This document shows, piece by piece, positions 1 to 16,844 of a stretch of DNA of 64,000 nucleotides. The number at the start of each line of letters is the position of its first letter. Positions within the stretch are counted from its first letter, which is position 1. Made by a program: the position numbers and the translations under genes. Under the pieces are notes generated by a model. That model did no database searches. It worked only from the letters and a program-made list of their open reading frames with translations, and had not been told where the DNA came from. Source of the stretch: Cognatilysobacter segetis (GTDB lineage: Bacteria; Pseudomonadota; Gammaproteobacteria; Xanthomonadales; Xanthomonadaceae); contig NZ_SMRQ01000004.1 in assembly GCF_004359965.1 (NCBI RefSeq), positions 1 through 64,000 of the forward strand, written 5' to 3'.

Positions 1-98
1 CGCGCCACGGCTTCCGCAACTATCCGCTCGAGTGGTGGCATTACACGCTCGACCTCGGCCCGTCGCTGCCACCGCTGCTGGACGTGCCGGTTCGATGA
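1..98 (+). CDS. D-alanyl-D-alanine dipeptidase (VanX/DdpX type), 3' end only
   Basis: The gene enters from the left edge; its frame opens at base 3 and stops at the TGA at 96-98, leaving about 31 residues. These include NYPLEWWHYTL, the tail motif of M15D zinc dipeptidases, in which the Glu-x-x-His element supplies the catalytic Glu and a zinc-binding His. The family hydrolyses D-Ala-D-Ala. The stop overlaps the next start (ATGA), so it is translationally coupled to the D-amino acid oxidoreductase, which could oxidise the D-Ala released. The N-terminus, and so export or cytoplasmic location, is not visible. Confidence 0.8.
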   Translation, partial: RHGFRNYPLEWWHYTLDLGPSLPPLLDVPVR

Positions 99-1345
99 GC
101 GCCACGCGGACCGCATCGGTCGCGGTGGTCGGCGCCGGCATCGTGGGGCTGTCCTGCGCGCACGCGCTGATGCAGCGCGGCTACGACTGCACGGTGGTGG
201 ATGCACGCGGGCCCGGCGAAGCGACGTCGTTCGGCAACGCGGGCTCGATCTCCGTCGGCAACGTGCTGCCGCAGTCCACGCCGGGCATCCTGCGCAAGGG
301 CCTGCGCATGCTCGCCGACCCGCTGTCGCCCCTGAAGCTCGACTGGCCGCGCTGGCCGCACTACGCGCGCTGGCTCGTCGATTTCGTGCGCAATGGGCGG
401 GCCGAGGCGGTGGCGCCGATCATCGACGCGCTGCACGCGCTCAACGCCGCCGCGCGCGACGCCTGGATCGACCTGGCCGCCGACATCGGCGCCGACGACC
501 TGCTCGCGCACACGGGCTACCTGCACGTCTACAGCGAGGATGCGAGCTTCGCCGCCGGCGCCTGGGAACGTGCCCTGATGCAGGAGCGGCGCGTGCGTTT
601 CGACGTGCTGGACGGCGCGGAGCTGCGATCGCTCGAGCCCGGCATCGGCGCGGGCTTCCGGCACGCCGTGTTCCAGCGCGACGCACTCGCCATGCGTGAT
701 CCGGGTCGGTTCTGCACGCGACTGGCCGATGCGCTGGTCGCGCGCGGCATGCGCAGCGTCGTCGCGAACGTGTCGGCCATCGAGCCGACCGCAGGCGGCT
801 ACGTTCTGCGCGGCGACACGGGCGACCTGCGCGCCGACAAGGTGGTGATCGCCGGCGGCGTGTGGAGCAACCGCCTGCTCGCACCGTTCGGGCGGCGCGT
901 CCCGGTCGTGCCCGCACGCGGCTACCACCTGATGTATCCGCCGCAGGAAGCGCCCGTGGTCGGCCGCCCGACGCTCTGGGCCGAACGCTACATGGTGGTG
1001 TCGCCGATGCGCGCGGGCATCCGCATGACCAGCATCAAGGAACTCACCGCGCTCGATACCGCGCCGCGCTTCGGCCTGATCCACCGGCTCGATGGCGAAG
1101 CGCGCAAGCTGTTCCCCGCGCTCGCCGCCGCGCCCGCCTCGGAGTGGGCGGGCCTGCGCCCCTGTACACCGGACTCGCTGCCGGTCATCGACCGCGTCGG
1201 CGACGCCGAGGTGTGGCTCGCCACCGGCCACGGCCACCTCGGCCTGACGCAGGCACCGATCACCGGGCGGCTGGTCGCCGAGAGCATGTCCGGCGTGCCG
1301 ACGTCGCTGCCGCTCGCGCCGTACCGGATCGACCGCTTCCGCTGA
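95..1345 (+). CDS. FAD-dependent D-amino acid dehydrogenase (DadA-like)
   Basis: A 416-aa DAO-family flavoprotein. The N-terminus carries the dinucleotide-binding GxGxxG loop (VVGAGIVGLS, about residues 12-21), and the C-terminus has the second FAD-contacting segment, with GLRPCTPDSLPVID and GHGHLGLT as in DadA and glycine oxidase. The family oxidatively deaminates D-amino acids, classically D-alanine to pyruvate and ammonia, passing electrons to the respiratory chain. The ATG at 95 was chosen because it overlaps the upstream dipeptidase stop; the open frame runs further up but only through dipeptidase coding. Hydroxyproline-type substrates cannot be excluded from sequence. The D-Ala-D-Ala dipeptidase neighbour favours D-Ala. 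Confidence 0.85.
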   Translation: MSATRTASVAVVGAGIVGLSCAHALMQRGYDCTVVDARGPGEATSFGNAGSISVGNVLPQSTPGILRKGLRMLADPLSPLKLDWPRWPHYARWLVDFVRNGRAEAVAPIIDALHALNAAARDAWIDLAADIGADDLLAHTGYLHVYSEDASFAAGAWERALMQERRVRFDVLDGAELRSLEPGIGAGFRHAVFQRDALAMRDPGRFCTRLADALVARGMRSVVANVSAIEPTAGGYVLRGDTGDLRADKVVIAGGVWSNRLLAPFGRRVPVVPARGYHLMYPPQEAPVVGRPTLWAERYMVVSPMRAGIRMTSIKELTALDTAPRFGLIHRLDGEARKLFPALAAAPASEWAGLRPCTPDSLPVIDRVGDAEVWLATGHGHLGLTQAPITGRLVAESMSGVPTSLPLAPYRIDRFR

Positions 1346-1378
1346 CCGGCATCGGGGCGTCCGGCAAGCGCGTGGCGG

Positions 1379-2401
1379 TCATGCGGCCGGGTCGGCCATC
1401 GCCAGCGCGGCGATGCGCCGGGCCAGGTCGTAGGGCTCGGGATCGTTGCGGTTGGTGAGCAGCACGACGGTCAGGCGCCGGCGGGGATAGCGCACGATCA
1501 CGTTGCGGAAGCCGATCGATTCGCCCGAATGCCAGAGCGTCTCGCCGCTCACCCGCCAGCCGTAGCCGTAGCGCACGCCGGGATCGTCGGTATCGGTGGC
1601 GGGCGTGAATGCCAGGCGCCAGCTGGCGGCCTTGAGCAGGCGTTCGTCGTAGAGCGCCGCATCCCATCGCGCGAGATCGTCGATCGAGGAATAGATGCCG
1701 CCGTCGCCCAGCACCGCGCTGGTCGCATCCTGGTCGGTGCGGCGCCATGCGCCCCGCTCGAAGCTGTAGCCGTAGGCGCGATCGGCGACGCCGGATCGGC
1801 GCGCCTCGTAGGCCAGCGTGCGTTCCATGCCCAGCGGCAGGAACACGCGCTCGCGCAGGAAGTCCGCATGGCGCTGGCCGGACGCACGCTCGACGACGAG
1901 CGCGAGCAACGCATAGCCGCTGTTGCTGTAGCGGTACGCGGTTCCGGGCGCGAAATACATCTGCTCGCGCGCCTCGAGCAGGCGCAGCACGTCGAGGTCC
2001 TGCACCTGCTGCGGGTCGGCCGGATCCATCAGCGCCTCGTAATCGAGGAGCCCGGAGGTATGCGTGAGCAGGTGGTGCAGCGTGACCGTGTCGGCGGCCG
2101 CCGGCAGCGTGGGCAGCCACGCCCGCACGCGGTCGTCCAGGCGCAGTCGGCCGCGCTCGGCGAGCAGCAGGATCGCCGCCGCGGTGAACTGCTTGCTCAC
2201 CGACGCCAGCCGGTAGTTCGTGCGCGGCGTGGTCGCCGCGCCGGCCTCGAGGTCCGCCAGCCCATAGGCGCGGCGCACGATCGGCACGCCATCGCGGAGC
2301 ACCAGCAGCGACGCGCCGGGCACGTCGCCGGTGTAGTCGCGCATCAACGCGTAGACCTGCGGGTCGAGCGTCGACGTTCGCACGCCGCAGGCCGTGGTCA
2401 T
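1379..2401 (-). CDS. Serine hydrolase, class C beta-lactamase/DD-peptidase fold (copy A)
   Basis: A 340-aa PF00144-type enzyme. The three active-site elements are present: SVSK (SxxK nucleophile, about residue 70), YSNSGY (YxN) and HSGES in the KTG position near the C-terminus. The family includes DD-peptidases, D-aminopeptidases and esterases. The ATG at 2401 overlaps the stop of the preceding gene (ATGA), so the pair is coupled. From this start there is no signal peptide, but a GTG nine codons upstream (2428) would add a short hydrophobic stretch ending in TTAC, which resembles a lipobox; location is therefore open. It is the last gene of the minus operon and probably acts on D-amino-acid peptides, given its neighbours. 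Confidence 0.8.
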   Translation of the reverse strand: MTTACGVRTSTLDPQVYALMRDYTGDVPGASLLVLRDGVPIVRRAYGLADLEAGAATTPRTNYRLASVSKQFTAAAILLLAERGRLRLDDRVRAWLPTLPAAADTVTLHHLLTHTSGLLDYEALMDPADPQQVQDLDVLRLLEAREQMYFAPGTAYRYSNSGYALLALVVERASGQRHADFLRERVFLPLGMERTLAYEARRSGVADRAYGYSFERGAWRRTDQDATSAVLGDGGIYSSIDDLARWDAALYDERLLKAASWRLAFTPATDTDDPGVRYGYGWRVSGETLWHSGESIGFRNVIVRYPRRRLTVVLLTNRNDPEPYDLARRIAALAMADPAA

Positions 2402-3960
2402 CGGGAAGGCGATCGCGGCGACGGGCACGCGCCGGCGCGCTCGAACGCGAGGTCCTCGAAGTCGTAGCTGAAGTCGGCCTGCGGATCGACCTTGCCCAGG
2501 CGCAGCGCGGGCCCGCCCGAGGTCCCGAAGTCGAGCCAGGCTTCCGCATCGACGCTCGGGTCGTTCCAGTCCACCAGCCAACGGTCGCCGACGCGCTGCA
2601 CGATGCCGTCCAGCATCGGCGACCTGGCGGCGCGAAAGCGCACCCGGTCGCCTTCGTCGCAGAGCGACACGTCGCCGAACCACGGGTCGCGGTAGACCCC
2701 GAGCCGGGACGCGAGCTCCGCCCCGCGTGCCGGGCGGCGGCGAGACGTGTCGGGCGCCTTCTCCGAGGCGCCGCGGCCGGCATCCTCGGCGTCGAGCAGC
2801 GCGGCGTAGTGGCCGACGGTGAGCGCGGGGGCGTGCGCGGTGTAGTGCTTGACCAGCGCCTGCGTGAGCACGGTGCGCGCGGCCTCGCCCTCGCCATTGG
2901 TGAGGATGACGAACCCGACCTTGCGATCCGGCAGCATCGTCACCGCGGAATACATGCCCATCAGCGTGCCGGTATGGGCCACCTTGAACACGCCGTCGAC
3001 GTCGGATAGGCGCCAGCCGTAACCGTAGGCGGAGACGTGGCTGCCGTCCCAGTCGCGCATCCGCGCCGACAGCGGCATCGGCATCTGCGGCGCCCAGACC
3101 GCATTGCGCTGCGCGGTCGACAGCCAGCCCGCCGATGCGCCTTCGGGCGACAGCCACGCGCGCACCCAGGTCAGCATGTCGTCGAGGCTGCAGCGGATGC
3201 CGCCGGCCGCCTCCATCGTGCTGGTGCGCACCTGCGCGCCGTCCGCGCGCACGGGCACGTTGCGATCCCCCTGGCGCATGTGCGGTTGCGCGACGTTGCC
3301 GACCGCATCCGCGTTCCAGTCGCCGACGCGGCAGCGCGTCATGCCCAGCGGTTCGAACACCTCGCGGCGCACGAGCGTCTCGTACGGCGCGCCGCCGGCC
3401 ACGGCCGCGACTTCGCCGGCGACGATGTACAGCAGGTTGTCGTAGGCATAGCGCGACCGGAAGCTGTACTGCGGCTTGAGGTAGCCGAGGCCGTGCAGGA
3501 TGTCGGCGCGCGTGAACGTGTTCGGCTCGGGCCAGAGCATGAGGTCGCCGGCGCCCGCGGGCAGCCCGCTGTTGTGGATGAGCAGGTCGCGCACCTGCAT
3601 CTCGCGCGTCACCCAGGCATCGTGCATGCGGAACTGCGGCAGGTACTTCACCACGGGGTCGTCCCACCGCAGCTTGCCGGCGTCGACCAGCCGCGCGAGC
3701 GTCGCCGCCGTCATCGCCTTGGTGTTGGACGCGATCTTGAACAGCGTCTTCGCGTCGACCTTCGCCCCGCCGCCGGCCACGAGCTCGCCGGCCGTGCGCG
3801 TGTACACGACCTTGCCGTCCTCGACGACGCCGACCGCCAGCCCGGGCAGGCGGTAGCGCGCCATCGTGGCGTCGAAGGCGGCGTCGAAGGCAGGGTCCGC
3901 GGCGTTCGCGGCGCAGGGCAGCCACAGCGCCAGCAAGAGGAGGCATCCAATCTTCTTCAT
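2398..3960 (-). CDS. Exported serine hydrolase, class C beta-lactamase fold with C-terminal DUF3471-like domain (copy B)
   Basis: A 520-aa protein with a clear signal peptide (MKKIGCLLLL... ending in ANA). The catalytic domain has SNTK as the SxxK motif, YDN as YxN and HTG near residue 340. About 150 further residues form a C-terminal beta domain of the kind often attached to PF00144 peptidases. It probably works in the periplasm on D-amino-acid peptides, although esterase activity cannot be ruled out. Its start overlaps the end of lysA (3957-3960) and its stop overlaps copy A, giving three tightly coupled genes. The two hydrolases are only distantly alike, so they are not a recent duplication. 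Confidence 0.82.
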   Translation of the reverse strand: MKKIGCLLLLALWLPCAANAADPAFDAAFDATMARYRLPGLAVGVVEDGKVVYTRTAGELVAGGGAKVDAKTLFKIASNTKAMTAATLARLVDAGKLRWDDPVVKYLPQFRMHDAWVTREMQVRDLLIHNSGLPAGAGDLMLWPEPNTFTRADILHGLGYLKPQYSFRSRYAYDNLLYIVAGEVAAVAGGAPYETLVRREVFEPLGMTRCRVGDWNADAVGNVAQPHMRQGDRNVPVRADGAQVRTSTMEAAGGIRCSLDDMLTWVRAWLSPEGASAGWLSTAQRNAVWAPQMPMPLSARMRDWDGSHVSAYGYGWRLSDVDGVFKVAHTGTLMGMYSAVTMLPDRKVGFVILTNGEGEAARTVLTQALVKHYTAHAPALTVGHYAALLDAEDAGRGASEKAPDTSRRRPARGAELASRLGVYRDPWFGDVSLCDEGDRVRFRAARSPMLDGIVQRVGDRWLVDWNDPSVDAEAWLDFGTSGGPALRLGKVDPQADFSYDFEDLAFERAGACPSPRSPSR

Positions 3961-5225
3961 GCGACGCTCCAGGCGGTCGGCAGGTGTTCGTTCTCGGCCA
4001 TCTGCGCCAGGCTCTGGCGACGCCGCACCACGGCGTAGCGGCCCTCGTCCAGCAGCACTTCGGCCAGCAGCGGGCGCGAGTTGTAGTTCGAACTCATCGA
4101 TGCGCCGTACGCGCCGGCGCCGGCGATCAGCACGAGGTCGCCCGCTTCGCAGCGCGGCAGGTCGCGGTCGCGCGCGAAGGTGTCGCCCGTCTCGCAGACC
4201 GGCCCGACCACGTCGTAGCGCGCGCGTGGTCGCCCACCCTCGTGCAGCACGTGGATGTCGTGCCACGCGTCGTACAGCGCGGGGCGCTGCAGGTCGTTCA
4301 TGGCGGCGTCGAGGACCAGGAATTCGCGCTCTCGCCCCGCCTTGACCCGCACGACCCGCGTCACCAGCACACCGGCCTCGGCGACGAGATAACGGCCCGG
4401 CTCCAGCACGATGCGCCCGTCGAAGCCGTGCAGCTGGCGGCGGATCGCGCCGACGTAATCGGCGGGATCGATCGGCCGGTCCATGCCGGCGCGATAGGCC
4501 ACGCCCAGCCCGCCGCCGACGTCGATGCTCGCGATGCGATGCCCGGCCGCCGCCAGTTCGCGCCAGAACGCCGCCAGGCGGGACATCGCCTGCTCGAACG
4601 GCGCCAGCTCGAGGATCTGCGAGCCGATGTGCGCATGCAGGCCGTCGAGCCGTACGTCGGGCCAGTGCGCGGCATCGGCGAACCAGCGCCGCGCCTCGTC
4701 GATGTCGACCCCGAACTTGTTCTCGGCCTTCCCGGTGGAGATCTTCGCGTGGGTGCGCGCGTCCACGTCGGGATTCACGCGCACCGCGGCATGCGCGACC
4801 ACGCCGCAGGCGCGTGCCACGGCCTGCAGCAGCGACAACTCGTCGGCCGACTCGACGTTGAACTTCCAGACCCCGGCATCGATCGCCGCGGCCATCTCGT
4901 CCGCGGTCTTGCCGACACCGGAAAACACGATGCTCGAGCCGGGAATGCCGGCCCGACGCGCGCGCCACAGCTCACCGGCCGACACGATGTCGGCGCCGAC
5001 GCCGAGTCCGGCCATCAGGTGCAGCACGCCTATGTTCGGGTTCGCCTTGACCGCGAAGCACAGCTGCGCGTCGAGGCCGGCGAGCGCGCGCTGCAGGCCC
5101 TCGACACGGCGACGGATCGCGTCCGCCGAATAGGCGTAGAACGGGGTGGGCACGCAGGCGGACAGCGCGTGCAGGTCGACGCCGTCGAGCGAGGCCGACG
5201 GCATGCAGGTCGGATTTCCGGTCAC
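3957..5225 (-). CDS. lysA: Diaminopimelate decarboxylase, stand-alone
   Basis: A 422-aa PLP enzyme of the fold-III decarboxylase family converting meso-diaminopimelate to L-lysine and CO2. The PLP-lysine motif FAVKANPN is near residue 58, the glycine-rich phosphate loop DVGGGLG near 240, the active-site cysteine in CETGDTF near 340, and a YGASMSSNYN-like C-terminal motif is present. The GTG at 5225 gives the longest plausible protein; an ATG at 5204 (MPSAS) is the alternative. Its place between a TonB receptor and two D-peptide hydrolases, not in a lysine biosynthetic operon, suggests a catabolic use: disposing of diaminopimelate released from peptidoglycan stems. Confidence 0.92.
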   Translation of the reverse strand: MTGNPTCMPSASLDGVDLHALSACVPTPFYAYSADAIRRRVEGLQRALAGLDAQLCFAVKANPNIGVLHLMAGLGVGADIVSAGELWRARRAGIPGSSIVFSGVGKTADEMAAAIDAGVWKFNVESADELSLLQAVARACGVVAHAAVRVNPDVDARTHAKISTGKAENKFGVDIDEARRWFADAAHWPDVRLDGLHAHIGSQILELAPFEQAMSRLAAFWRELAAAGHRIASIDVGGGLGVAYRAGMDRPIDPADYVGAIRRQLHGFDGRIVLEPGRYLVAEAGVLVTRVVRVKAGREREFLVLDAAMNDLQRPALYDAWHDIHVLHEGGRPRARYDVVGPVCETGDTFARDRDLPRCEAGDLVLIAGAGAYGASMSSNYNSRPLLAEVLLDEGRYAVVRRRQSLAQMAENEHLPTAWSVA

Positions 5226-5310
5226 GGCATCGACGTCGGAAGGCGCGGCGGCGGCCCCGGGACCGCGGCCGCCGGGCAGGCCGGCGACCGCGTCCGGGTC
5301 ACGGTGCGTG

Positions 5311-8300
5311 TCAGAAGTTCCAGGTCAGCACCAGCTGCGCATAGCGCGGTGACTGCCACGCGGTGCCGGTGCCGAACGTGGGGCGGTAGACGCCCGGCTG
5401 CCGCTCGTAGCGGCCACGCACGTTCACCACCTGCTGCTGGTTGAGCAGGTTGAACACCGAGAAGCGCACCTTCAGGTCCATGTCCTCGACCGGCAGCGTC
5501 CAGGTCACGTTCGCGCCGAGGTTGTACGTCCACGGCATGCGGCCGAACGCGCCGCGCTCGGAGAACTCGTAAACGCGCTGGCTGTTCGGGCCGGTGCAGT
5601 TCTGCACGCAGATCCAGCCGGTGCCGCCGCCGCTGCCCTCGCTCGTGTAGCTGGCGACGCTGTCCTCGCCCGGCCAGGACGTGCCGAACGCGGTGATCGG
5701 GCCGCCGGAGAGCGCGGTGAACGTGGCGCCGAGCAGCCACTGTTCGCTGACCTTGTAGCTGCCGCGCAGCTTCACCTGGTGCTCGTGGTCGTTGAACAGC
5801 ACGCCGTAGCGCTCGGTGTTGGCCGGATGATCCCAGTGCTGGACCATGCCGGTGTCGCCGTAGTTGGTGTCGGAATTCACCGGGCCTTCGTGGTTGCCCT
5901 CCGACTTCGACCACAGGTACGACGCGTTGAACGCCCACTTGTCGTCCCAGGCGCGGTCGATCTGGAACTCCACCGCCTTGTAGGTACGGCGCGGCTTGGA
6001 GTAGCCGATGATCCGGTTCGTGCCCGCGGTGATGTAGCCCTCCTTCGAGGTATCGATCGTCACCCAGCCGTCCTGCGCGCAGCCCATCGCACGGGTGCCC
6101 CACAGCGTGAGCGTGTCGCCCGGGTTGGCGATCGGGAACAGGTTGCCGTGGCGCACGCCGCAGAGCGCGTTGATGCGAACGTCGTCGACGGCGTTCGTCA
6201 TGTCGCGGTAGGTGGCGTTGACGCCCCAGGACCAGGCGCGGTTGATCATGCTCTGGAAGCCCAGGATGAACTCGTCCTGGTAGACGGCCTTGAGGTCCTG
6301 GTCGACGCTCTGGCGCAGGTCGCCCGCGCTGACGTTGAACTGGTCGTCCACCGGGCCGATCTGCGTGCCCAGGCGGGGCTGCATGTAGGTCGAGCCGGTG
6401 ACCGGGTTGACCTGCTGGGTGAAGCCGTCGAGCACGTAGAACGTGCGCTCGTCGGTCAGGCCGCCGGCGAAGGTGTAGTTGATGTTGTTGGTGATCGGCA
6501 GGTAGTAGCGGCCGGCGTTGCCGAACAGCTTCGTGCTGCCGTCGGCCTTCATGTCCCAGGAGAAGCCGACGCGCGGCGACACCAGGTTGTCCATCTTGAT
6601 GAAGCTGGCGCCGGTGGCGGTCTTGTTGTCGAAGCCGTCCACGCGCACGCCGAGGTTGAGCATGAACGTCGGCGTGATGTTCCAGATGTCCTCGAGGTAC
6701 CACGCGTTCGCGACGGTCTCGAACACGCCGCCATCGACGCGCTTGCGTCCCATGACGATCGCGTTCACGCCGGCAGGCACCGCCGCGCCGTTGTCGAGCA
6801 CGGTGCCGGGCGCACGCGAGTAGATCGTGTAGCGCATGCCGGTCGGACCCGGGTAACCCGTGGTGCGGTCGGTGCTCATCTGCTCGCGGTCGAGGCCGAA
6901 GCGCAGCAGGTGGCTGCCCAGCGTCCATTCGAAGTCGAGGCGGCCGACCTTGCGCTCGTCGTGGTGGTCGACCACCGACGCGGAGGTGCTCGGATGGCAG
7001 CTGACCGGCGGCCGGCCCATCGCGGCGTAGGCGCCGTTGTAGCTGGAGTCGACGATCACCTGCGAGCAGAGCTCGTCGGCGGAGGACGCGACCAGGCTCT
7101 GCGTGCGGTTGAAGCCGTACATCGCCTTGGCGACGAAGTTCTCGCCGAACTGGCCGGTGTAGGTCAGCGAGCCGTTGCGGCCGCCGCTTTCGTTGGTGCT
7201 GTCGCCCACGCGCGCGCCGCGCTCGCCGGTGTCCCAGTTATAGGCGTAGGTGGTGCTCTCGGACTTGCCTTCGTCGGAGAAGGCGAGCAGTTCGAGGCGA
7301 TGGTCGTCGGTGATGTTCCAGTCGAGCTTGGTGCCCCAGAACCCGTTGTTGAACCCGCCGTCGAACCAGTTGGCGCCGTTGTTGTCGGTGTTGCCGGCGT
7401 TGTCGTGGCGCTGTTCGTACATCGCGAACATGAAGAGCTTGTCCTTCACCAGCGGTCCGCTGGCCCAGACGTTGGCCTTCATGAAGCTGTCCTTGTCGCG
7501 GCTGGAGCGGTAGTACACGGGCACGCGCTTGCCGCTGGCATCGAGGTCGTAGAACTCGTGGTCGTCGGCGGGCGCGCGCCAGGCGTTCGGCTCGAACGTC
7601 AGCTCGACGCCACCCTTCACTTCGTTGGTGCCGCGGCGCGTGACCGCGTTGATCACGCCGCCGGTGCTGCGGCCGAACTCCACCGAGTAGCCGCCGGTCT
7701 TGACCTGGAATTCCTGGAAGAACGCGAAGGGCGCGGACGAGAAGCTCTGCCGGCGGTAGAAATCGGTGACGTTCAGTCCGTTGATGAAGACGGAGTTCTC
7801 GGCGATCGACGAGCCGCCGAAGGAGATCCCGCCGAGCGACGAGTTGCCGACGATGACGCCGGGCGCGAGCAGCGCGACGGAGCCGAGGTCCTGCGCGACC
7901 GGCAACCGCGCGATGTCCTCGCGGGTCACGTTCGTGGCGCTTTCGGTCGAGTACACATCCACGCGGTTGACCACCCGCGAGCCCACGACCTGCACGGAGT
8001 CGAGGCTGCGCATGCCGCCTTCGCCGCCGAGGTTGACCGTCGTGGTGCCGCCGAGCGACACGCTGGCCTGCACCGGCGCGCCGACCGCTTGGCCGTTGCG
8101 CACCACCTGCACCGTGTAGTCGCCGACCGGCAACTGAGTGAGGCGGTAGCTGCCGTCGCTGCCCACCGTCACGCTGCGGCTCACCCCGGTAGCGGGGTTG
8201 GTGATCGTGATCTGGTCGCCCGCGCTCGCGCGGCCGGCCACGGCGCCGGTCGCACTCTGTGCCATGACGACGGGCGCCATCGCGCCCAGGCATGCACCCA

Positions 8301-8358: not shown

Positions 8359-8400
8359 GTCCCCTCCAGCGCGTGATGTGCGAACCGTGAGCCGCGGGCG

Positions 8401-9912: not shown

Positions 9913-9968
9913 GGGAAGCGGAAGACGATCCACGCGGGCGACGACCCGTACTGGGGGCACGTGACGGG

Positions 9969-9997
9969 TGTGTAACATGGGGAAAACCGCCGGTCAA
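9969..9997 (-). promoter_or_regulatory. Sigma-70-type promoter of the minus operon
   Basis: On the minus strand TTGACC (9992-9997) is followed after 17 bp by TGTGTA on the plus strand, read as TACACA (9969-9974). Predicted transcription starts near 9962, about 50 bp ahead of the ATG at 9912. Both hexamers are good matches in an otherwise G+C-rich region. Confidence 0.6.
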
Positions 9998-10012
9998 TAA
10001 TTTATTCTTGAC
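9993..10012. promoter_or_regulatory. AT-rich dyad between divergent -35 boxes, candidate operator
   Basis: The halves GTCAA (9993-9997) and TTGAC (10008-10012) are an inverted repeat separated by ten A/T-rich bases, with partial symmetry continuing inward. The dyad overlaps both divergent -35 hexamers, so one bound regulator could control both operons at once. The RpiR/MurR-family protein at 13819 is the only regulator in the locus and is the natural candidate. The pairing is inference. Confidence 0.45.
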
Positions 10013-10036
10013 GGCACCCCTGAAAGAAGTTTTTAT
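10008..10036 (+). promoter_or_regulatory. Sigma-70-type promoter of the plus operon
   Basis: TTGACG (10008-10013), a 17-bp spacer and TTTTAT (10031-10036). Transcription would start near 10043, about 34 bp before the ATG at 10077, with AGGGG at about 10060 as ribosome binding site. The A/T-rich run GAAAGAAGTTTTTATTC crosses the -10 and could also be a regulator contact. Confidence 0.6.
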
Positions 10037-10076
10037 TCCTCCGTCGGACACGGGGTCCTAGGGGTAGCGGTCGCTG

Positions 10077-11234
10077 ATGATCGATTCGGTTTGGCCCTAC
10101 GTCGCACTGCTGCTGCTCGCGGCGGGCCTGGTCCCCGCGCTGGAACGGCGTTTCGGATGGCGCCTGTTCTCGGTGCTTCCGCCCATCGTGCTCACGTACC
10201 TGCTGGTCACCGCGCTGGCGGTGTCGGGCGTCTGGCGATCGGGCGACGACATCGCCGCCGCGCAGCGCACGCTGACCTCGCAGCTGCTGCCGGCGCTGCT
10301 GTTCCTGCTGATGATCGGCTGTGACCTGCGCGCCATCCTCAAGCTCGGCCCGCGCGTGCTCGCCGTGTTCGCCTGTGCGCTGGCGAGCATCCAGATCGCG
10401 ATCGTGCTGGTCTACCTGCTGTTCCGGCAGGCGCTGCCGGCGGAAGGCTGGATGATGCTGTCGGCACTGAGCGCGACCTGGAGCGGCGGCTCGGCGAACC
10501 TGGTCGCGGTCAAGGAATCGGTCGGGCTGCCGGACAACCTGCTGCCGTCGGTACTGCTCGCCGATGCGCTGTGCTACTCGGTCTGGGTGGTCGCGCTGTT
10601 CTCGGCCGCGAGGCTCGCGCCGGCGTTCGACCGCTGGACACGCGCCGATACGCGCGACGTGCTCGTCGAGGCCGAGCTGCCCGCGAAGGGCGGCGCGACG
10701 GCCGGCGACGTGCTGCTCTGGCTCGGCGCGGCGCTGGTGGTGGGCAACGTCTCGATGGCTCTCGCTGCGCGGCTGCCGGCCAACGGCCTGCTGACCTCGA
10801 CCGCCTGGACCGTGCTGGTGGCCACGGTGTTCGGGCTGGTTCTGGCCCGCACGCGCTCCGCGCATTCGCCGGTGCCCGCGCCGCTCGCGAGCGCGATGCT
10901 CGCGCTGCTGGTCGCGGTGCTGGCGTCGCAGAGCAACTTCGAGGGGCTGGCGACCGCGCCGCTGTTCGTCGCCGCCGGCTTCTGCGTGCTGCTGCTGCAC
11001 ATCGCGATCCTCGCGCTGCTCGCGCGGCTGTTCCGCTTCGACCTCTATCTCTGCGGCATCGCCTCGCTCGCCCAGATCGGCGGCGTCGCGACCGCGCCGG
11101 TGCTGGCCGCCACCTATTCGCGCGCGCTGGTGCCGGCCGCCGTGCTGCTCGCCACGCTCGGCCTCGTCATCGGCACCGCGGTCGGGCTGTCGATCGCCGG
11201 CCTGCTGTCCACGCTGTCGCCTTACGGAACCTGA
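10077..11234 (+). CDS. DUF819 family multi-pass membrane protein
   Basis: A 385-aa integral membrane protein with about ten hydrophobic segments and the DUF819 signature LSATWSGGSANLVAVKE (about residues 132-148), in which the GGSAN loop resembles the re-entrant loops of secondary transporters. The family (YjcL-like) is regarded as probable transporters, but no substrate is settled. It is the first gene of the operon and lies two bases before an exported NlpC/P60 endopeptidase and a dipeptide epimerase. A role in carrying L-Ala-D-Glu or another stem-peptide fragment into the cytoplasm is therefore a reasonable but unproven reading. Confidence 0.85.
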   Translation: MIDSVWPYVALLLLAAGLVPALERRFGWRLFSVLPPIVLTYLLVTALAVSGVWRSGDDIAAAQRTLTSQLLPALLFLLMIGCDLRAILKLGPRVLAVFACALASIQIAIVLVYLLFRQALPAEGWMMLSALSATWSGGSANLVAVKESVGLPDNLLPSVLLADALCYSVWVVALFSAARLAPAFDRWTRADTRDVLVEAELPAKGGATAGDVLLWLGAALVVGNVSMALAARLPANGLLTSTAWTVLVATVFGLVLARTRSAHSPVPAPLASAMLALLVAVLASQSNFEGLATAPLFVAAGFCVLLLHIAILALLARLFRFDLYLCGIASLAQIGGVATAPVLAATYSRALVPAAVLLATLGLVIGTAVGLSIAGLLSTLSPYGT

Positions 11235-11236
11235 CC

Positions 11237-12625
11237 ATGCGCCTGCTCGCCCCCCTCGCCGCCGCCCTTCTGCTTGCCCTTGCGCCCGTCCAGGCGCGCG
11301 AGTGGACGGTGCCGGCCGATACCGGCGTGATCGGCGTCGAACGCTCGCAACTCGATCCGCAGTACTGGATCGCGCGGCTCGCGCGGCCCGATCGCGTGGT
11401 GCTCGACGCCGACGCGATCGCGCGCCAGAACGCTCGGCTGTACGCGATCGATCCCAGCATGCACGACCTCGCAGCGCTGCCGGACGCGTTGCCCCGCGCG
11501 ACCGTGGCACCCTGGGTGACGCGCCTTTCGGCGCCGCCGAAGCGGGCGCTGTTCGATGCACAGGGCCGTCCGATGCCCGCCGCCGCGGTTGCCGCCATCG
11601 TGGCCAATGCCGACGTCGCGGGCATCGATGCCACGCGTCCGACGCGGTACGGGCTGGTGGTCCGCCGTGCGCCGCTGCGCGCCTTCCCGACACTGCAGCC
11701 GGCGTTCTCGTCGGCCGACGACCGCGACATCGACCGTTTCCAGGAAAGCGCGCTGTTTCCCGGCGATCCGGTGGCGGTCGCGCACGAGAGCCGCGACGGA
11801 CGCTGGTGGTTCGTGGTGAGCCCGCGCTACGCGGCATGGATCGAGAAGCGCCACGTCGCGATCGGGGACAAGGCCGCGGTGCTCGGTCATGCGCGCAAGG
11901 CGCCCTACCGCGTCGTCACCGGCGGCGAAGTGCATACGGTGTTCACGCCCGAGGCGCCGGCCGTCTCCGAACTCCAGCTCGACATGGGCGTACGCGTTCC
12001 GGTGCTGGCCGACTGGCCGGTCGCGACGCCCGTGAACGGCCAGCAGGGCTATACCGCGCACGTGGTCGAGTTGCCGGTGCGGAAGGCGGACGGCTCGCTC
12101 GGCTTCAGCCCCGCGCTGCTGCCGCGCATCGAACCCAGCAGCGCCGACTACCTGCCGCTCACGCAGGCGAACATCATCCGCCAGGCGTTCCGTGTCCTCG
12201 GCGAGCGCTACGGCTGGGGCCACGACTTCAACGGGCGCGACTGCAGCGGCTTCGTGTCCGAGGTCTACCGCAGCATGGGCGTGGAGCTGCCGCGCAACAC
12301 CAGCGACCAGGCCGTGAGCCCCGCGCTCAACCGCATCGCGCTGACCAAGGACGACAGCCGCGAGCGCCGCCTCGCGCTGGTGCGCGAACTGCAGCCCGGC
12401 GACCTGATCTACATCCCCGGCCACGTGATGATGGCGATCGGCCAGGTCGACGGTGAGCCCTACGTCATCCACGACACCACCGGCCTGAGCTGGCGCGATG
12501 CCGACGGCACGCCGCGCCGCGCCAAGACCAACGGCGTCACCGTGTCGCCGCTGACGCCGCTGATGTTCAACGGCACCGAAAGCTTCGTCGACCGGATCAC
12601 CAACATCCAGCGCATCCGGCCCTGA
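11237..12625 (+). CDS. Exported NlpC/P60 endopeptidase with SH3 domains (YkfC-like)
   Basis: A 462-aa protein with a signal peptide (MRLLAPLAAALLLALAP, cut near VQA/RE), two SH3b-like domains in the middle (about residues 130-300) and a C-terminal NlpC/P60 domain. Catalytic residues are visible: Cys in GRDCSGFVSEVYR and His in IPGHVMMAIG. The architecture matches YkfC-type gamma-D-glutamyl-L-diamino-acid endopeptidases, which cut between D-Glu and meso-DAP and release L-Ala-D-Glu. Here the signal peptide places it in the periplasm, and the next gene encodes the enzyme that uses L-Ala-D-Glu. It also contains the conserved ELPRNTSDQA stretch found after the Cys in this subgroup. Confidence 0.88.
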   Translation: MRLLAPLAAALLLALAPVQAREWTVPADTGVIGVERSQLDPQYWIARLARPDRVVLDADAIARQNARLYAIDPSMHDLAALPDALPRATVAPWVTRLSAPPKRALFDAQGRPMPAAAVAAIVANADVAGIDATRPTRYGLVVRRAPLRAFPTLQPAFSSADDRDIDRFQESALFPGDPVAVAHESRDGRWWFVVSPRYAAWIEKRHVAIGDKAAVLGHARKAPYRVVTGGEVHTVFTPEAPAVSELQLDMGVRVPVLADWPVATPVNGQQGYTAHVVELPVRKADGSLGFSPALLPRIEPSSADYLPLTQANIIRQAFRVLGERYGWGHDFNGRDCSGFVSEVYRSMGVELPRNTSDQAVSPALNRIALTKDDSRERRLALVRELQPGDLIYIPGHVMMAIGQVDGEPYVIHDTTGLSWRDADGTPRRAKTNGVTVSPLTPLMFNGTESFVDRITNIQRIRP

Positions 12626-12686
12626 CCCGGCCCGCGCCGCGCCGCCGGCGCGCGCGCGGCCCCCCGCCCCCATTTCCCGCCTCCGA

Positions 12687-13784
12687 ATGAAAATCACCGA
12701 CATCCGCTTCGGCCTGCTGAGAATCCCGCTGAAAACGCCGTTCAAGACCGCGCTGCGCACGGTCGAGGCGGTCGAGGACATCGTCGTCGAGGTGCACACC
12801 GACACCGGCCACGTCGGCTATGGCGAAGCGCCGGCGACAGCGGTGATCACCGGCGACACGCACGGCTCGATCCTCGAAGCGATCCGCCGCTTCATCGGGC
12901 CGCGGCTGATCGGGCAGGAGATCGCCAACCTCAACCGCGTCACCCACCTGATCCAGACCGCGCTGGAGAAGAACACCAGCGCCAAGGCCGCGGTGGAGAT
13001 CGCCGTCTACGACCTGTTCGGCCAGCTCTACGGCGCGCCGCTCTACCGCATGCTCGGCGGCGGCGACCCGGTGATCACCACCGACATCACCATCAGCGTC
13101 GACTACATCGACAAGATGGTGGCCGACTCGATCAGTGCGGTGGACCGTGGGTTCGAGTCGCTGAAGATCAAGGTCGGCAAGGACATCGGCGTGGACATCG
13201 AGCGCGTCAAGGCGATCTACGCCGCGGTGGAGGGGCGCGCGCTGCTGCGGCTCGACGCGAACCAGGGCTGGACCGCGAAGCAGGCGGTGTACGCGATCAC
13301 CGCGCTCGAGGACGCCGGCGTGCGGCTCGAGCTCGTCGAACAACCGGTCAAGGCGCGCGACCTCGACGGCATGAAGTACGTCACCGAGCACGTGCACACG
13401 CCGATCATGGCCGACGAGAGCGTGTTCGGCCCGACCGAGGTCATCGACCTGATCCGCATGCGCGCGGCCGACATCATCAACATCAAGCTGATGAAGACCG
13501 GCGGCCTCTCCAACGCGATCCGAATCGCCGACATCGCCTCGCTCTACGGCGTGGACTGCATGATCGGCTGCATGCTGGAGTCCAGCATCAGCGTCGCCGC
13601 CGCGGTGCACCTCGCGGTGGCGAAGGCCGACGCGATCACCAAGGTCGACCTCGACGGTCCGTCGCTGTGCGCGTACAACCCGGTCGAGGGCGGCGTGATC
13701 TTCAACGAGTCGGAGATTTCGGTGACCGACGCCCCCGGCCTCGGCATCCGCAGCATCCAGGGCCTGGAACCGATCGCCGCATGA
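12687..13784 (+). CDS. L-Ala-D/L-Glu type dipeptide epimerase (enolase superfamily)
   Basis: A 365-aa enolase-superfamily enzyme of the muconate-lactonizing group. All the expected catalytic and metal residues are recognisable: LKIKVGKD with the acid/base Lys pair (about residue 158), RLDANQGW (Asp), ELVEQPV (Glu), IMADESV (Asp) and INIKLMKTGG with the second catalytic Lys. Homologues YkfB and YcjG convert L-Ala-D-Glu to L-Ala-L-Glu so that ordinary peptidases can finish it. No signal peptide, so cytoplasmic. It follows the NlpC/P60 gene by 61 bp. Epimerases of this fold vary in dipeptide preference, so the substrate is supported mainly by context. Confidence 0.88.
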   Translation: MKITDIRFGLLRIPLKTPFKTALRTVEAVEDIVVEVHTDTGHVGYGEAPATAVITGDTHGSILEAIRRFIGPRLIGQEIANLNRVTHLIQTALEKNTSAKAAVEIAVYDLFGQLYGAPLYRMLGGGDPVITTDITISVDYIDKMVADSISAVDRGFESLKIKVGKDIGVDIERVKAIYAAVEGRALLRLDANQGWTAKQAVYAITALEDAGVRLELVEQPVKARDLDGMKYVTEHVHTPIMADESVFGPTEVIDLIRMRAADIINIKLMKTGGLSNAIRIADIASLYGVDCMIGCMLESSISVAAAVHLAVAKADAITKVDLDGPSLCAYNPVEGGVIFNESEISVTDAPGLGIRSIQGLEPIAA

Positions 13785-13818
13785 GGCGGCCGCCCGCCGC
13801 CATGGAGGCTCCGCACGC

Positions 13819-14664
13819 ATGTCGCCGCTGCTGAGGATCCGCGCCGAGCGCGACCGCATGTCCGCCATCGAGCGGCGCATCGCGGACTTCCTGCTGGAGA
13901 ACGCGCACCTGTTGCGCGACTACTCCTCGCAGCAGCTCGCCAGCGCGCTCGGCATCAGCCAGTCGAGCGTGGTGAAGTTCAGCCAGAAGCTCGGCTTCCG
14001 GGGCTATCCGGACCTCAAGTACTCGATCGTGGAAGCCGCGGCGCGCCCGGAGGGCGAGGACGCGACGACCGTCGCGCCGCCCGCCGCGCATCCGCTCGGC
14101 GCGCTCGCCGATGCGTTGTGGGAGCTGAAGTCCCAGGCCGAGGCGGCCACGCGCGCCATCAATCCGCCGGAGCAGGTCGATGCCGTCGCGCGCGCCATCC
14201 GGCACGCCGGCAAGGTCTACGTGATCGGCCTCGGCGAGGACGGCATCCCGGCGCGTGCGTTCGCGACGCGCCTGTCGATGCTCGGCGTGCTGACGGTGCA
14301 CTACGTCGATGCCGCGCTCATGCAGGCCGGCGTGTCGAACGCGGTCGAGGGCGACGTGCTGCTGGCGTTCTCCGAACACGGCCGCCAGCCCACGCTGTGC
14401 CAGATCGCGCGCCGCATGCGCGAGCACGGCGGGCACGTCGTCACCGTGACGCGCCACACGCCCAATCCGCTGCGGGCCCATGCCGGCGTTGCGTTGCTGG
14501 TCTCGGCGCATGACGGGCGGCGGCACGTCGAGCCGCTGCTGTACCAGTCCGCCGTGCTGCACCTGCTCGACCTGATCTTCGTGCTGCTCTGCGAGTCCAG
14601 CGAGGCCTACCGGCACGCGCTCGACGAGAACCTCGACCACATGCACGATCTGCTCGACAGCTGA
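13819..14664 (+). CDS. RpiR/MurR-family transcriptional regulator (HTH + SIS)
   Basis: A 281-aa regulator. The N-terminal 75 residues form an HTH_6 domain (SSQQLASALGISQSSVVKFSQKLGFRGYPDLK). Residues about 110-240 form a SIS sugar-phosphate-binding domain (KVYVIGLGEDGIPARAF). Family members such as MurR sense amino-sugar phosphates. The gene lies inside the plus operon with a good ribosome binding site (GGAGG at 13803), so it is probably autoregulated. The AT-rich dyad between the divergent promoters (9993-10012) is its most likely target. The ligand is unknown; a muropeptide-derived sugar phosphate would fit. Confidence 0.85.
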   Translation: MSPLLRIRAERDRMSAIERRIADFLLENAHLLRDYSSQQLASALGISQSSVVKFSQKLGFRGYPDLKYSIVEAAARPEGEDATTVAPPAAHPLGALADALWELKSQAEAATRAINPPEQVDAVARAIRHAGKVYVIGLGEDGIPARAFATRLSMLGVLTVHYVDAALMQAGVSNAVEGDVLLAFSEHGRQPTLCQIARRMREHGGHVVTVTRHTPNPLRAHAGVALLVSAHDGRRHVEPLLYQSAVLHLLDLIFVLLCESSEAYRHALDENLDHMHDLLDS

Positions 14665-14677
14665 TCCCCTCCAGGCC

Positions 14678-15478
14678 ATGCCGATGCCCTACGCGCGCCG
14701 TTCGTTCCTGTCCTGCATCGCCGGCGCGTTCGCGCTGGTGCTGACCGCCTGCGCGGGAACGCCGTCGCCGCCGGACGTGCGCGGCTGGACGGAGCTGGAG
14801 CAGATGATCGTCGTCACCACGACCGGCTGGGACGTCGATCGCGGCACGCTGCGCCGGTTCGAGCGCGCGCGCGCCGGGGCCGATTGGACACAGGTCGGCG
14901 CCGCGGCCCCGGTGATGATCGGGCGCGCCGGCAGCGCATGGGGGATCGGGCTGCATCCCGCGCAGGCGGCGGGCCCGCACAAGCGCGAGGGCGACGGTCG
15001 CGCGCCGGCGGGCGTATTCGCACTCGGCACCGCGTTCGGCTATGCCGACCGTGTCGAGACGCGCCTCGGGTATCGCGGCATGACGGCGAGCGACTACTGC
15101 ATCGACGTCCCGGACTCCCCGCTCTACAACCGCATCGTCGACGCACGCGAAGTGGGCGAACAGGGCGTGGCCGGCTCGACCGAGCCCATGCGCCGCGACC
15201 TGCATGCCGACGGCGATGCACGCTACCGCCTCGGCTTCGTGATCGAGCACAACCCGCAGGCCACGCGCGCCGCGGGCAGCTGCATCTTCGCGCACCTGTG
15301 GAAGACGCCGGATACCCCGACCGCGGGCTGCACGGCGATGGCCGAGCCGGTCATGCGGCAGCTGCTCGGCTGGCTCGACGCGGGCCGCCGCCCCGTCTTC
15401 GTGCTGCTGCCCGAGGCCGAGTACCGCCGCGTGCGCACGGACTGGGGCCTGCCCGCGCTGCAGGCCGGCTCGGACTGA
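14678..15478 (+). CDS. YkuD-domain lipoprotein (L,D-transpeptidase/peptidase family)
   Basis: A 266-aa protein with a lipoprotein signal: the lipobox LTAC puts the lipid on Cys25, and RRSFL just before the hydrophobic stretch resembles a twin-arginine motif. The C-terminal part has the YkuD/YafK-type active site, with His in IFAHLWKTP and Cys in AGCTAM (near residue 215). YkuD enzymes exchange or hydrolyse bonds to meso-DAP in stem peptides using that Cys. Its position between the regulator and symporter of a muropeptide locus suggests a peptidase or trimming role. Transpeptidase activity is equally compatible with the sequence. Confidence 0.75.
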   Translation: MPMPYARRSFLSCIAGAFALVLTACAGTPSPPDVRGWTELEQMIVVTTTGWDVDRGTLRRFERARAGADWTQVGAAAPVMIGRAGSAWGIGLHPAQAAGPHKREGDGRAPAGVFALGTAFGYADRVETRLGYRGMTASDYCIDVPDSPLYNRIVDAREVGEQGVAGSTEPMRRDLHADGDARYRLGFVIEHNPQATRAAGSCIFAHLWKTPDTPTAGCTAMAEPVMRQLLGWLDAGRRPVFVLLPEAEYRRVRTDWGLPALQAGSD

Positions 15479-15524
15479 TCCGCACGATCCCCACCCCACC
15501 CGCATCGCGCCTACAGGAACCCAC

Positions 15525-16844
15525 GTGTCCACGACCGCCCGCGTTCTGCTCGGACTCCTCCTCGGCGCCGTCATCGGGCTGGCACTCGCACACTGGGACG
15601 CGTCGACCGCGACGCGCGTGGCCGATGCGGTGCAGCCGATCGGCCGCCTATGGCTCAACGCGCTGCAGATGACGGTGGTGCCGCTGGTGGCCGCGCTGGT
15701 GATCCTCGGCGTGAACACCGCGCGCGACGCGGCGGCATCGGGCCGCACGGCGCGTCGCGCGATCGCCTGCTTCCTCGTGCTGCTAGCCTGCGGCGCCGCG
15801 TTCGCCGCGGTGGCCGCGCCGCTGCTGCTCTCGCTGCTGCCGCGTCCGCAGGGCCTCGCCGCTGCGCTCGCGGGTGCCGACGCCGGCGCGGTCGGCCTCG
15901 CGGTGCCGGCGTCGTTCGGCGAGTGGTTCACGGGGATCATCCCGGCCAATGCGCTGGCGGCCGCGGCGTCCAGCGCGATGCTTCCGCTCGTGGTGTTCGC
16001 ACTGTTCTTCGGGTTCGCGCTCACGCGCATCGAGCATGCGCGCCACGAGCGCCTGCTCGAACTCGTACAGGCGATCGCCGACGTCATGATCGTCATCGTG
16101 CGCTGGGTGCTGTGGGCGGCACCGCTGGGCGTGTTCGCGCTCGTGCTCGCGGTCTGCGCGCGCGTGGGCGGCGGCATGCTGGGCGTGTTCGGCACCTACA
16201 TCGGCCTGCAGGTGGCGCTGTACGTCGCGATGACGCTGCTGCTGTATCCGATCGCCGTGCTGGCCGGCCGCGAGCGGCTGCGGCGCTTCGCGTCGGCGAT
16301 CCTGCCGGCGCAGACGATCGCCGCGAGCACGCAGTCGTCGCTCGCGTCGCTACCGGCGATGCTCGAGAGCGCGAGCCGGCGTCTGGGCTATCCGCTGCCG
16401 GTGACGTCGCTGGTGCTGCCGATGGCGGTGTCGCTGTTCCGCATCACCAGCCCGATGCAGTACGTGGGCGTCGCGGTGTTCATCGCCTGGGCGCACGGCA
16501 TCGACCTCAGCGCGGCGCAGCTGGTGACGGGCGCGGCGCTCGCGGTCGTGATCAGCATGGGTTCGGTCGGCCTGCCCGGCCAGGTGAGCTTCATGGCGAC
16601 CAACATGCCGGTCACCCAGGCGATGGGCCTGCCGATCGAACCGCTCGGCGTACTGCTCGCGCTGGATACGATCCCCGACGTGTTCGCCACGGTCGGCAAC
16701 GTCACCGCGGACCTCGCGGCGACGAGCATCGTGGCTGGCGGGCAGCGCACGGACGCGGACGACAGCGGAACGGCTGCGGGAACGTCGATCGAGGCCGGTT
16801 CGCCCCAGCGAACGCCCGCCGGCGAGGCCGCGTCGCCGGATTAA
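15525..16844 (+). CDS. SDF-family dicarboxylate/amino acid:cation symporter (GltP/DctA type)
   Basis: A 439-aa membrane protein starting at GTG. It shows the hallmarks of the glutamate transporter family: eight hydrophobic segments, the serine-rich re-entrant hairpin AASTQSSLASLPAM (about residue 268), and the second hairpin region GSVGLPGQVSF. The last 35 residues are a polar tail. The family takes up glutamate, aspartate, C4-dicarboxylates or neutral amino acids with Na+ or H+. As the last gene of the plus operon it could recover glutamate or alanine released outside the cytoplasm from stem peptides. The exact substrate cannot be read from sequence. Confidence 0.85.
   Translation: MSTTARVLLGLLLGAVIGLALAHWDASTATRVADAVQPIGRLWLNALQMTVVPLVAALVILGVNTARDAAASGRTARRAIACFLVLLACGAAFAAVAAPLLLSLLPRPQGLAAALAGADAGAVGLAVPASFGEWFTGIIPANALAAAASSAMLPLVVFALFFGFALTRIEHARHERLLELVQAIADVMIVIVRWVLWAAPLGVFALVLAVCARVGGGMLGVFGTYIGLQVALYVAMTLLLYPIAVLAGRERLRRFASAILPAQTIAASTQSSLASLPAMLESASRRLGYPLPVTSLVLPMAVSLFRITSPMQYVGVAVFIAWAHGIDLSAAQLVTGAALAVVISMGSVGLPGQVSFMATNMPVTQAMGLPIEPLGVLLALDTIPDVFATVGNVTADLAATSIVAGGQRTDADDSGTAAGTSIEAGSPQRTPAGEAASPD

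Follow-up and report, generated by a model that had tools for sequence, protein, structure and literature searches.

A candidate peptidoglycan stem-peptide utilisation locus in Cognatilysobacter segetis and its relatives

Gene content and layout

The DNA analysed here (the window) is a 64,000-nucleotide stretch of Cognatilysobacter segetis that starts at base 1 of contig C4, in an assembly of 2.94 Mb and 133 contigs. It opens with a group of genes that probably allows the use of peptidoglycan stem peptides, and this locus is our subject. Genes were called by codon statistics, reading frames were checked separately, and domains were assigned with Pfam and NCBIfam. Eleven genes form two divergent units, and the gene for a D-amino-acid oxidoreductase (DAO) lies downstream of a VanX gene that is truncated by the contig edge; the frames are intact (Table 1). 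The VanX tail and DAO come first, on the plus strand. They are followed by a five-gene minus-strand unit (transglutaminase-like protein, TonB receptor, LysA, S12b, and S12a, with LysA, S12b, and S12a overlapping by 4 bases) and then by a divergent six-gene plus-strand unit (DUF819, NlpC/P60, epimerase, RpiR, YkuD, and SDF). A first-pass annotation had listed these genes and their back-to-back layout; all of them are present, and their order recurs in relatives.

Table 1. Predicted genes and regulatory boxes of the locus, with window coordinates and profile scores.
Feature	Position	Strand	Details
VanX/DdpX-like D-Ala-D-Ala dipeptidase, C-terminus (Peptidase_M15)	3-98	+	last 31 codons; ends EWWHYTLDLGPSLPPLLDVPVR; frame 3 = RHGFRNYPLEWWHYTLDLGPSLPPLLDVPVR
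FAD-dependent D-amino-acid oxidoreductase (DAO family)	95-1345	+	PF01266 216.6 bits
S12/beta-lactamase-fold hydrolase a (S12a)	1379-2401	-	PF00144 244.7 bits; SxxK, YxN, and HxG present
S12/beta-lactamase-fold hydrolase b (S12b), exported judging from N-terminus	2398-3960	-	PF00144 223.8 bits; DUF3471 27.8 bits (cut-off 29.3)
Stand-alone diaminopimelate decarboxylase LysA	3957-5225	-	TIGR01048 460.8 bits (cut-off 297.9)
TonB-type outer-membrane receptor with CarboxypepD_reg domain	5311-8358	-	PF25183 105.2 bits; PF13620 37.4 bits
Transglutaminase-like protein (Transglut_core), exported judging from N-terminus	8401-9921	-	PF01841 55 bits
Predicted regulatory box 1, GGTCAATAATTTATTCTTGAC	9992-10012 (including 9993-10007)		divergent intergenic region
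Predicted regulatory box 2, GAAGTTTTTATTC	10026-10038		start 33 bp after box 1 start
DUF819 membrane transporter (CPA/AT fold)	10077-11234	+	PF05684 234 bits (cut-off 27)
SH3_6 + NlpC/P60 endopeptidase, exported judging from N-terminus	11237-12625	+	PF12913 66 bits; PF00877 49 bits
MR/MLE epimerase (L-Ala-D/L-Glu type)	12687-13784	+	PF13378 180.3 bits; PF02746 63.5 bits
RpiR/MurR-type regulator (HTH_6 + SIS)	13819-14664	+	PF01418 72.8 bits; PF01380 55.1 bits
Divergent YkuD-fold protein, lipoprotein judging from N-terminus	14678-15478	+	PF03734 21.6 bits (below cut-off 23.4)
SDF-family (GltP/DctA-like) amino-acid/dicarboxylate symporter	15525-16844	+	PF00375 258.2 bits

Contig C20 ends within an M15 gene, of which it carries the N-terminal part (48442-48855, reaching the last base but one). 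This fragment matches PF01427 with 73.3 bits (cut-off 27) over profile positions 5-137 of 199, is the sole PF01427 match in the genome, and encodes a lipoprotein judging from its N-terminus. VanX/DdpX enzymes carry the motifs SxHxxGxxxD and EWWH; the C20 fragment has SGHSRGLTLD, and the tail in the window has EWWHYT within 3-98. The two pieces are probably one VanX gene that is split by an assembly gap and intact in the organism. The rest of the last 12.9 kb of C20 held no gene linked to the pathway (domain scans of chosen frames gave only DUF2752, M15, and Fer2_BFD). At the other end, directly downstream of the locus, lies a gene for a DUF411 protein (16988-17467, plus strand), for which no match surfaced in the neighbourhoods compared for the locus genes.

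Spread of the locus and its intergenic element

Searching GTDB genomes with an alignment of six epimerase sequences gave at least 553 relatives, of which we kept the best 80 loci with 10-kb flanks (some shorter). We take these loci to belong to the Xanthomonadaceae/Lysobacteraceae or Rhodanobacteraceae, save one Steroidobacter and a few unassigned metagenome-assembled genomes. Because these 80 loci are the most similar ones, we also drew a broader sample from 20 genera in the family with a listed epimerase position, one genome per genus (20 kb each); at least 5 of those 20 assemblies are also among the 80 loci.

By tblastn, the epimerase and RpiR are found in all 80 loci, NlpC/P60 in 78, the transglutaminase-like protein and YkuD in 75 each, the TonB receptor in 70, and SDF in 62. 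All six core genes (NlpC/P60, epimerase, RpiR, YkuD, TonB receptor, and transglutaminase-like) are found together in 65 of the 80. The broader sample gives a similar picture: epimerase and RpiR in 20 of 20 genera, NlpC/P60 and the TonB receptor in 19, the transglutaminase-like protein and YkuD in 18, and all six in 16. DUF819, the S12 proteins, LysA, VanX, the M19 dipeptidase, and SDF are variable parts. S12b was found in 47 of the 80 loci (16 of the 20 genera), DUF819 in 46 (6), LysA in 45 (7), VanX in 29 (8), S12a in 14, and the window type of DAO in 4; SDF was found in 14 of the genera (with an amino-acid permease in 4) and M19 in 3. Extra parts also recur among the 80 loci, namely the M19 dipeptidase (33), a second DAO (31), Amidase_2 (9), and an amino-acid permease in the SDF slot (7). 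These extra parts were counted by gene clusters, with one representative per cluster scanned for domains, and counts by tblastn and by called-gene clusters differ (VanX, 29 and 28; S12a, 14 and 11; S12b, 47 versus 39 + 6). The first-pass annotation had described the cluster as joined to an outer-membrane receptor, LysA, and DUF819. Neither DUF819 nor LysA is a constant part of it.

The gene order is repeated throughout the family, far more than chance would explain. Conservation of order in relatives, on which the first-pass annotation had staked its reading, is seen across the 80 loci and the 20 genera. The locus is present in Lysobacter, Luteimonas, Pseudoxanthomonas, Dyella, Rhodanobacter, Luteibacter, Frateuria, and others; 38 of the 54 genera of the family match the epimerase, as do 215 of 297 genomes in a family sample (198 at E 1e-145 or better, by hand count). 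This spread undercuts the suggestion that the locus reflects a predatory life style: as it extends through many genera, from Lysobacter to Frateuria, it is a lineage-wide trait rather than a predator-specific one. Among five relatives that were found via DUF819, four have both units in the same order (L041, L042, and L044 in the family, and L051 in another family of the order). Frateuria terrea and Dyella jiangningensis are among the relatives with the DUF819 form.

Reduced forms exist outside the order, in three genomes of one gammaproteobacterial family. L142 has DUF819, NlpC/P60, epimerase, and YkuD in the window's order, with an epimerase that is 61% identical. In L143, NlpC/P60 and the epimerase occur with a transglutaminase-YkuD fusion, and genes resembling VanX and an amidase are close by. 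L144 has epimerase and NlpC/P60 genes beside YkuD.

To describe the region between the two units (155 bases in the window), we compared the window with 72 of the 80 loci, namely those with a called transglutaminase-like gene and a gap of 20-500 bases to DUF819 or NlpC/P60 (73 intergenic regions in all). GTCAATAA is present in 73/73, and the block GTCAATAA(T)TTAT(K)C, which includes box 1, is nearly invariant. Box 2 most commonly has the form GAAT-N5-ATTC and in other loci is often a palindrome, GAATA-N3-TATTC. It starts 33 bases after the start of box 1, and its columns A, A, T, and C at offsets 34, 35, 43, and 45 are invariant in all 73. A third, TGTGTAACATG-like block precedes box 1 by about 14-25 bases, and the columns between the blocks are far less conserved. 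No other site in the genome is within 3 mismatches of GTCAATAATTTATTC (1 match in the window versus 0 expected).

The natural reading is that the two-box element is a shared operator for both units and that RpiR, which has the HTH_6 and SIS domains of the RpiR/MurR type and accompanies every one of the 80 loci, is the protein that would bind boxes 1 and 2. Promoter elements could account for part of the intergenic conservation. If the element is read as a sigma-70 promoter, TTGA is at the place needed for a plus-strand -35 in only 15/73. AT-rich, box-like palindromes also lie near the starts of two reduced clusters (L142:8915, AATAAAATATT; L144:11765, GAATTATTTATTC), but those genomes are AT-richer and this may be chance.

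Enzymes, receptor, and transporters

The closest sequence to the epimerase in the PDB is 1jpm, an L-Ala-D/L-Glu epimerase (336.5 bits, E 1.9e-99) that we take to be the Bacillus subtilis enzyme; the second-closest is the dipeptide epimerase 3jva (282.3 bits). We aligned the window epimerase with 1jpm and checked, in the window and the 80 related loci, 12 residues that are presumably at or around the catalytic, metal-binding, and dipeptide-binding sites. All 12 are identical in 81/81, and R24 and D321/D323 are kept. Family and residues thus agree with a predicted L-Ala-D/L-Glu epimerase, and the sequence groups with 1jpm. Separately, epimerase identity is 81-93% across the 80 loci versus mostly 43-87% for its neighbours, a constraint markedly stronger than catabolic enzymes usually show.

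The closest solved relative of the NlpC/P60 protein is 3m1u (88.2 bits with the single sequence and 118.4 bits with a profile), which was deposited as a putative gamma-D-glutamyl-L-diamino acid endopeptidase. Of the catalytic residues, C336 and H396 are kept in 79/79 and H412 in 78/79. With an NlpC/P60 domain joined to SH3b, a Cys-His-His site, and a nearest solved relative of the YkfC/3m1u type, the protein probably cleaves the bond between gamma-D-Glu and meso-diaminopimelate (mDAP). The stem-peptide breakdown proposed in the first-pass annotation fits these enzymes, whose specificity was checked against solved relatives and active-site residues.

For D-Ala, we propose that the DAO flavoenzyme takes it as substrate and yields pyruvate. 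Natural variants of S12b occur: L102 (3-2630) encodes an 876-aa fusion of an M19 dipeptidase with an S12 hydrolase in the S12b position, and there are six more S12b-type proteins of 812-896 aa among the related loci. For mDAP, the stand-alone LysA looks redundant for biosynthesis because the genome also encodes, on contig C9, a bifunctional aspartate kinase/diaminopimelate decarboxylase (1347.8 bits, cut-off 802).

Recycling genes exist separately from the locus: Mpl (585.1 bits, cut-off 388.7) and an AmpG-type permease (437.2 bits with TIGR00901, which we take to be the AmpG family; cut-off 350) lie elsewhere in the genome. A match to Peptidase_S66 (LD-carboxypeptidase) is absent from the genome, and the same model matches 6 of 14 control genomes. 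Because S66 is missing, the divergent YkuD lipoprotein is a candidate LD-carboxypeptidase. Its His/Cys pair (H206/C218) is invariant in 76/76, and a search of its profile against solved proteins gave no relative at E 0.1.

These genes bear on the possibility that the locus serves a growing cell to recycle its own wall peptides and that the TonB receptor only recaptures lost fragments. With Mpl and the AmpG-type permease present, muropeptides probably do find their way back into the cell; the YkuD protein could stand in for the missing S66 enzyme; and many of the genera with the locus are not known to be predatory. We nevertheless consider this explanation doubtful. The key cutting enzyme, NlpC/P60, is exported (judged by eye from its N-terminus) and would act before import; the receptor is as widespread as described above; LysA and DAO would destroy building blocks rather than return them; and the classical recycling genes are already present elsewhere.

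The transglutaminase-like protein has a triad (C371/H406/D422) that is invariant in 76/76. In a Foldseek search with its AlphaFold2 model (predicted local distance difference test score, pLDDT, 84.8), the best match was 3isr, an uncharacterised Cytophaga cysteine protease (E 1.3e-12), followed by TgpA. Because pseudomurein endoisopeptidases rank much lower (E 0.014 and 0.085), a role as a wall hydrolase is only a suggestion. A 708-aa natural fusion in L143 (7576-9699, minus strand), beside the epimerase gene, joins Transglut_core (57.1 bits) to YkuD (31.3 bits, above the cut-off) and so would tie the two activities together. The cargo of the TonB receptor is presumably wall-peptide fragments. 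A second, different TonB receptor lies beside the locus in L070, L081, L125, L133, L154, L156, and L158, mostly with an Amidase_2 gene; four of these loci (L070, L081, L125, and L154) lack the usual TonB-transglutaminase pair.

To our knowledge, no substrate is known for DUF819. The window protein scores far above the family's gathering cut-off, and its AlphaFold2 model (pLDDT 81.5) has the CPA/AT fold, with SeCitS (5a1s) as the best Foldseek match (TM 0.70, 14% identity). Relatives encode at least two kinds of DUF819: the window kind (~230-257 bits) in this locus and a commoner kind (~350-457 bits) elsewhere. The commoner kind adjoins an S9 peptidase in four of six loci read (L046-L049 of L045-L050). 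DgcA-type racemases (343-423 bits, cut-off 400) share a cluster with other copies in L056, L057, and L060, and the L056 and L060 clusters also contain DgcN (430 and 449 bits, just under the cut-off of 480). In L141, a second epimerase-like gene adjoins DUF819, and an M19 dipeptidase gene is close by. DUF819 was found in 37 of 398 genomes of a phylum sample at E <= 0.001 (33 above the cut-off), and among the matches listed (epimerase down to ~84 bits) close linkage to the epimerase was seen only in G000, G055, and G402 (twice). Epimerase linkage is a property of certain DUF819 kinds, not of the whole family. Because of four contexts (epimerase with NlpC/P60, DgcA/DgcN, S9 peptidases, and M15 in Neisseria), we infer that DUF819 imports small peptides or D-Glu compounds, which here would be L-Ala-D-Glu or other small stem peptides. 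As a separate observation, a gene with an X-Tfes_XVIPCD domain, presumably of a family of bacterial-killing type IV effectors, lies near the commoner kind of DUF819 in L045 (8244-9365).

These contexts also raise the question of whether the locus scavenges D-/L-dipeptides or peptides more broadly, with wall peptides as one substrate and with the epimerase and S12 proteins as generalists. The S12, SDF, and DUF819 families are broad, the S9 neighbours of the other DUF819 kind point in this direction, and several dipeptide epimerases have other specificities. This seems quite improbable because the epimerase is closest to 1jpm by a clear interval in score and keeps the residues noted above, and because VanX, NlpC/P60 with SH3_6, LysA, and in some loci an amidase jointly indicate wall peptides.

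Proposed pathway and comparison with known systems

We propose, with a probability of roughly 0.8, that the locus serves the utilisation of peptidoglycan stem peptides. The first steps would take place outside the cytoplasm: D-Ala residues would be removed by VanX (M15), by an S12 hydrolase, and by the YkuD lipoprotein, and the exported NlpC/P60 enzyme would cut the gamma-D-Glu/mDAP bond to give L-Ala-D-Glu and mDAP. The dipeptide would cross the inner membrane probably via DUF819, and free amino acids probably via the SDF symporter. In the cytoplasm, the epimerase would turn L-Ala-D-Glu into L-Ala-L-Glu, which an ordinary dipeptidase coded elsewhere would split, while LysA would convert mDAP to L-Lys and DAO would convert D-Ala to pyruvate. 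The TonB receptor and the transglutaminase-like protein probably import and open larger fragments, which is the least certain step, and RpiR probably controls both units through the two-box element. The recurrent extra parts (M19, DAO, Amidase_2, and the permease) are wall-peptide enzymes too and so support the stem-peptide reading. If correct, this describes a gene set that is widely conserved in a large group of soil and water bacteria, is probably co-regulated, and leads to a definite prediction about nutrition; it also makes the transglutaminase-like protein and the divergent YkuD lipoprotein candidates for wall-peptide hydrolysis in a genome without the usual LD-carboxypeptidase.

Two sets of observations weigh against this proposal. 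First, many of the proteins fall short of specific models. The epimerase is under the NCBIfam cut-offs of NF041118 (259.3 bits, cut-off 500) and PRK15129 (113.3 bits, cut-off 343), although these are lineage-specific models, so that the shortfall weakens the epimerase claim only in part; because the equivalog cut-offs were missed, we filed the protein by closeness and residues. NlpC/P60 scores 23 bits with its NCBIfam model (cut-off 186). The best NCBIfam model for DAO is the D-amino acid dehydrogenase PRK00711 (212.1 bits, cut-off 383), and because this DadA cut-off was missed we assign the protein only to the DAO family. Likewise, S12a is best matched by D-aminopeptidase (134.7 bits, cut-off 443), S12b reaches 90 bits with AmpH (cut-off 266), SDF reaches 118.2 bits with GltP (cut-off 638), and the YkuD protein is below the PF03734 gathering score (Table 1). 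The first-pass annotation had called the catabolism complete, which goes too far. The enzymes are as listed, but no L-Ala-L-Glu dipeptidase was found among the locus genes of the window, and the YkuD role, the TonB and DUF819 cargo, and the transglutaminase step are predictions from sequence context. Also, TonB receptors are numerous in Xanthomonadaceae.

Second, the locus and its parts are unevenly distributed. Only 2 of 8 genomes examined from the window's own genus (the window genome and G006, from the set G000-G007) have an epimerase match; because the other 6, one of them a single-contig genome, have none, the trait is common in the family yet dispensable. The pattern in the genus may reflect either gain by transfer or repeated loss. 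DUF819 was not seen in 34 of the 80 loci. In 31 of these its slot is plainly empty, with a transglutaminase-NlpC gap of 206-595 bases; in the other 3 the gap is not delimited (L115 ends before that place, and no transglutaminase-like gene was found in L125 and L140). As 31 loci plainly do without it, DUF819 cannot be the sole entry route. The gap in these loci is too short for a permease, which rules out a replacement transporter in the slot, and the amino-acid permease is no substitute either, as it takes the SDF slot instead. By Fisher test, DUF819 is strongly associated with other parts: VanX is in 26/34 loci without DUF819 versus 2/46 with it, and an M19 cluster is in 2/34 versus 31/46. 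The absence counts are soft, however, because a large share of the M19 genes reach the end of the 10-kb flank. In a tree of the epimerase and RpiR, DUF819 changes state at least 8 times and gives only 5 supported independent pairs, so the association of DUF819 with other parts shows no link beyond ancestry.

The exceptions to the two-unit layout belong here as well. L043, the fifth relative found via DUF819, has the plus-strand unit without the TonB-transglutaminase half (with 13.8 kb upstream covered), and so do L070 and L081. This could mean that only the NlpC-epimerase-YkuD-RpiR core is a functional unit and that the TonB, transglutaminase-like, S12, and SDF genes are unrelated neighbours. 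Consistent with that idea, L142 has no TonB or transglutaminase match, L143 and L144 have weak TonB matches (26-27%) some kb away, and TonB identity is often 45-50% versus 81-93% for the epimerase. We think this unlikely because the TonB and transglutaminase-like genes are divergent to the core in 18-19 of the 20 genera and share the conserved two-box element with it, and because L143, outside the order, has the transglutaminase-YkuD fusion next to the epimerase.

On balance we favour a stem-peptide utilisation locus that includes both units. A bolder version, which we put forward only tentatively, is that it resembles a polysaccharide utilisation locus: a peptidoglycan-peptide utilisation locus with its own receptor, in which DUF819 imports small peptides (here L-Ala-gamma-D-Glu) and the transglutaminase-like protein is a new class of wall-peptide hydrolase.

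Parts of this arrangement are familiar. The ykfABCD/dpp genes of Bacillus subtilis form a murein-peptide cluster in which ykfA is an S66 LD-carboxypeptidase. As in that cluster, the L-Ala-D/L-Glu epimerase adjoins an NlpC/P60 gamma-D-Glu-diamino-acid endopeptidase (NlpC/P60 in 78 and the epimerase in 80 of 80 loci). In contrast to ykf, the NlpC/P60 protein of the window belongs to the SH3_6/3m1u type and is exported, an S66 LdcA is missing from the genome, the locus has no ABC dipeptide importer, and it adds the TonB receptor, transglutaminase-like protein, LysA, VanX, RpiR, DUF819, and SDF. In Escherichia coli, ycjG is an epimerase for the murein dipeptide and ddpX is a VanX-type D-Ala-D-Ala dipeptidase, so both activities have counterparts here, but the window epimerase scores only 113 bits with PRK15129, which we take to be the E. 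coli-type L-Ala-D/L-Glu epimerase model. We know of no joined locus with a receptor and an operator in E. coli.

The DgcN-DgcA D-glutamate pathway, as described in PMC10845958, also uses an enolase-superfamily racemase for a D-Glu compound, and DUF819 and S12 genes are neighbours in L056, L057, and L060. The window epimerase is from a different branch (163.5 bits with the DgcA model, cut-off 400), and no DgcN was found among the window genes scanned. In Neisseria, according to PMC12671195, a gene pair places DUF819 next to an M15 peptidase but is inserted in a methylcitrate cluster. PMC8396727 assigns DUF819 to the CPA/AT fold; the CPA/AT transporters CitS and GltS share this fold class and differ at 14% identity. 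We found no description of this locus in the open-licence PMC literature (subscription papers lie outside that scope): PMC9143381 concerns a different Xanthomonas protein, PMC3605383 concerns plant epimerases and does not contain the words operon, cluster, or DUF, and PMC6090828 names a dipeptide epimerase once, in a table. Thus, the chemistry is known, and what is new is the joined, probably co-regulated, and widely conserved arrangement with an outer-membrane receptor, together with the proposed role for DUF819.

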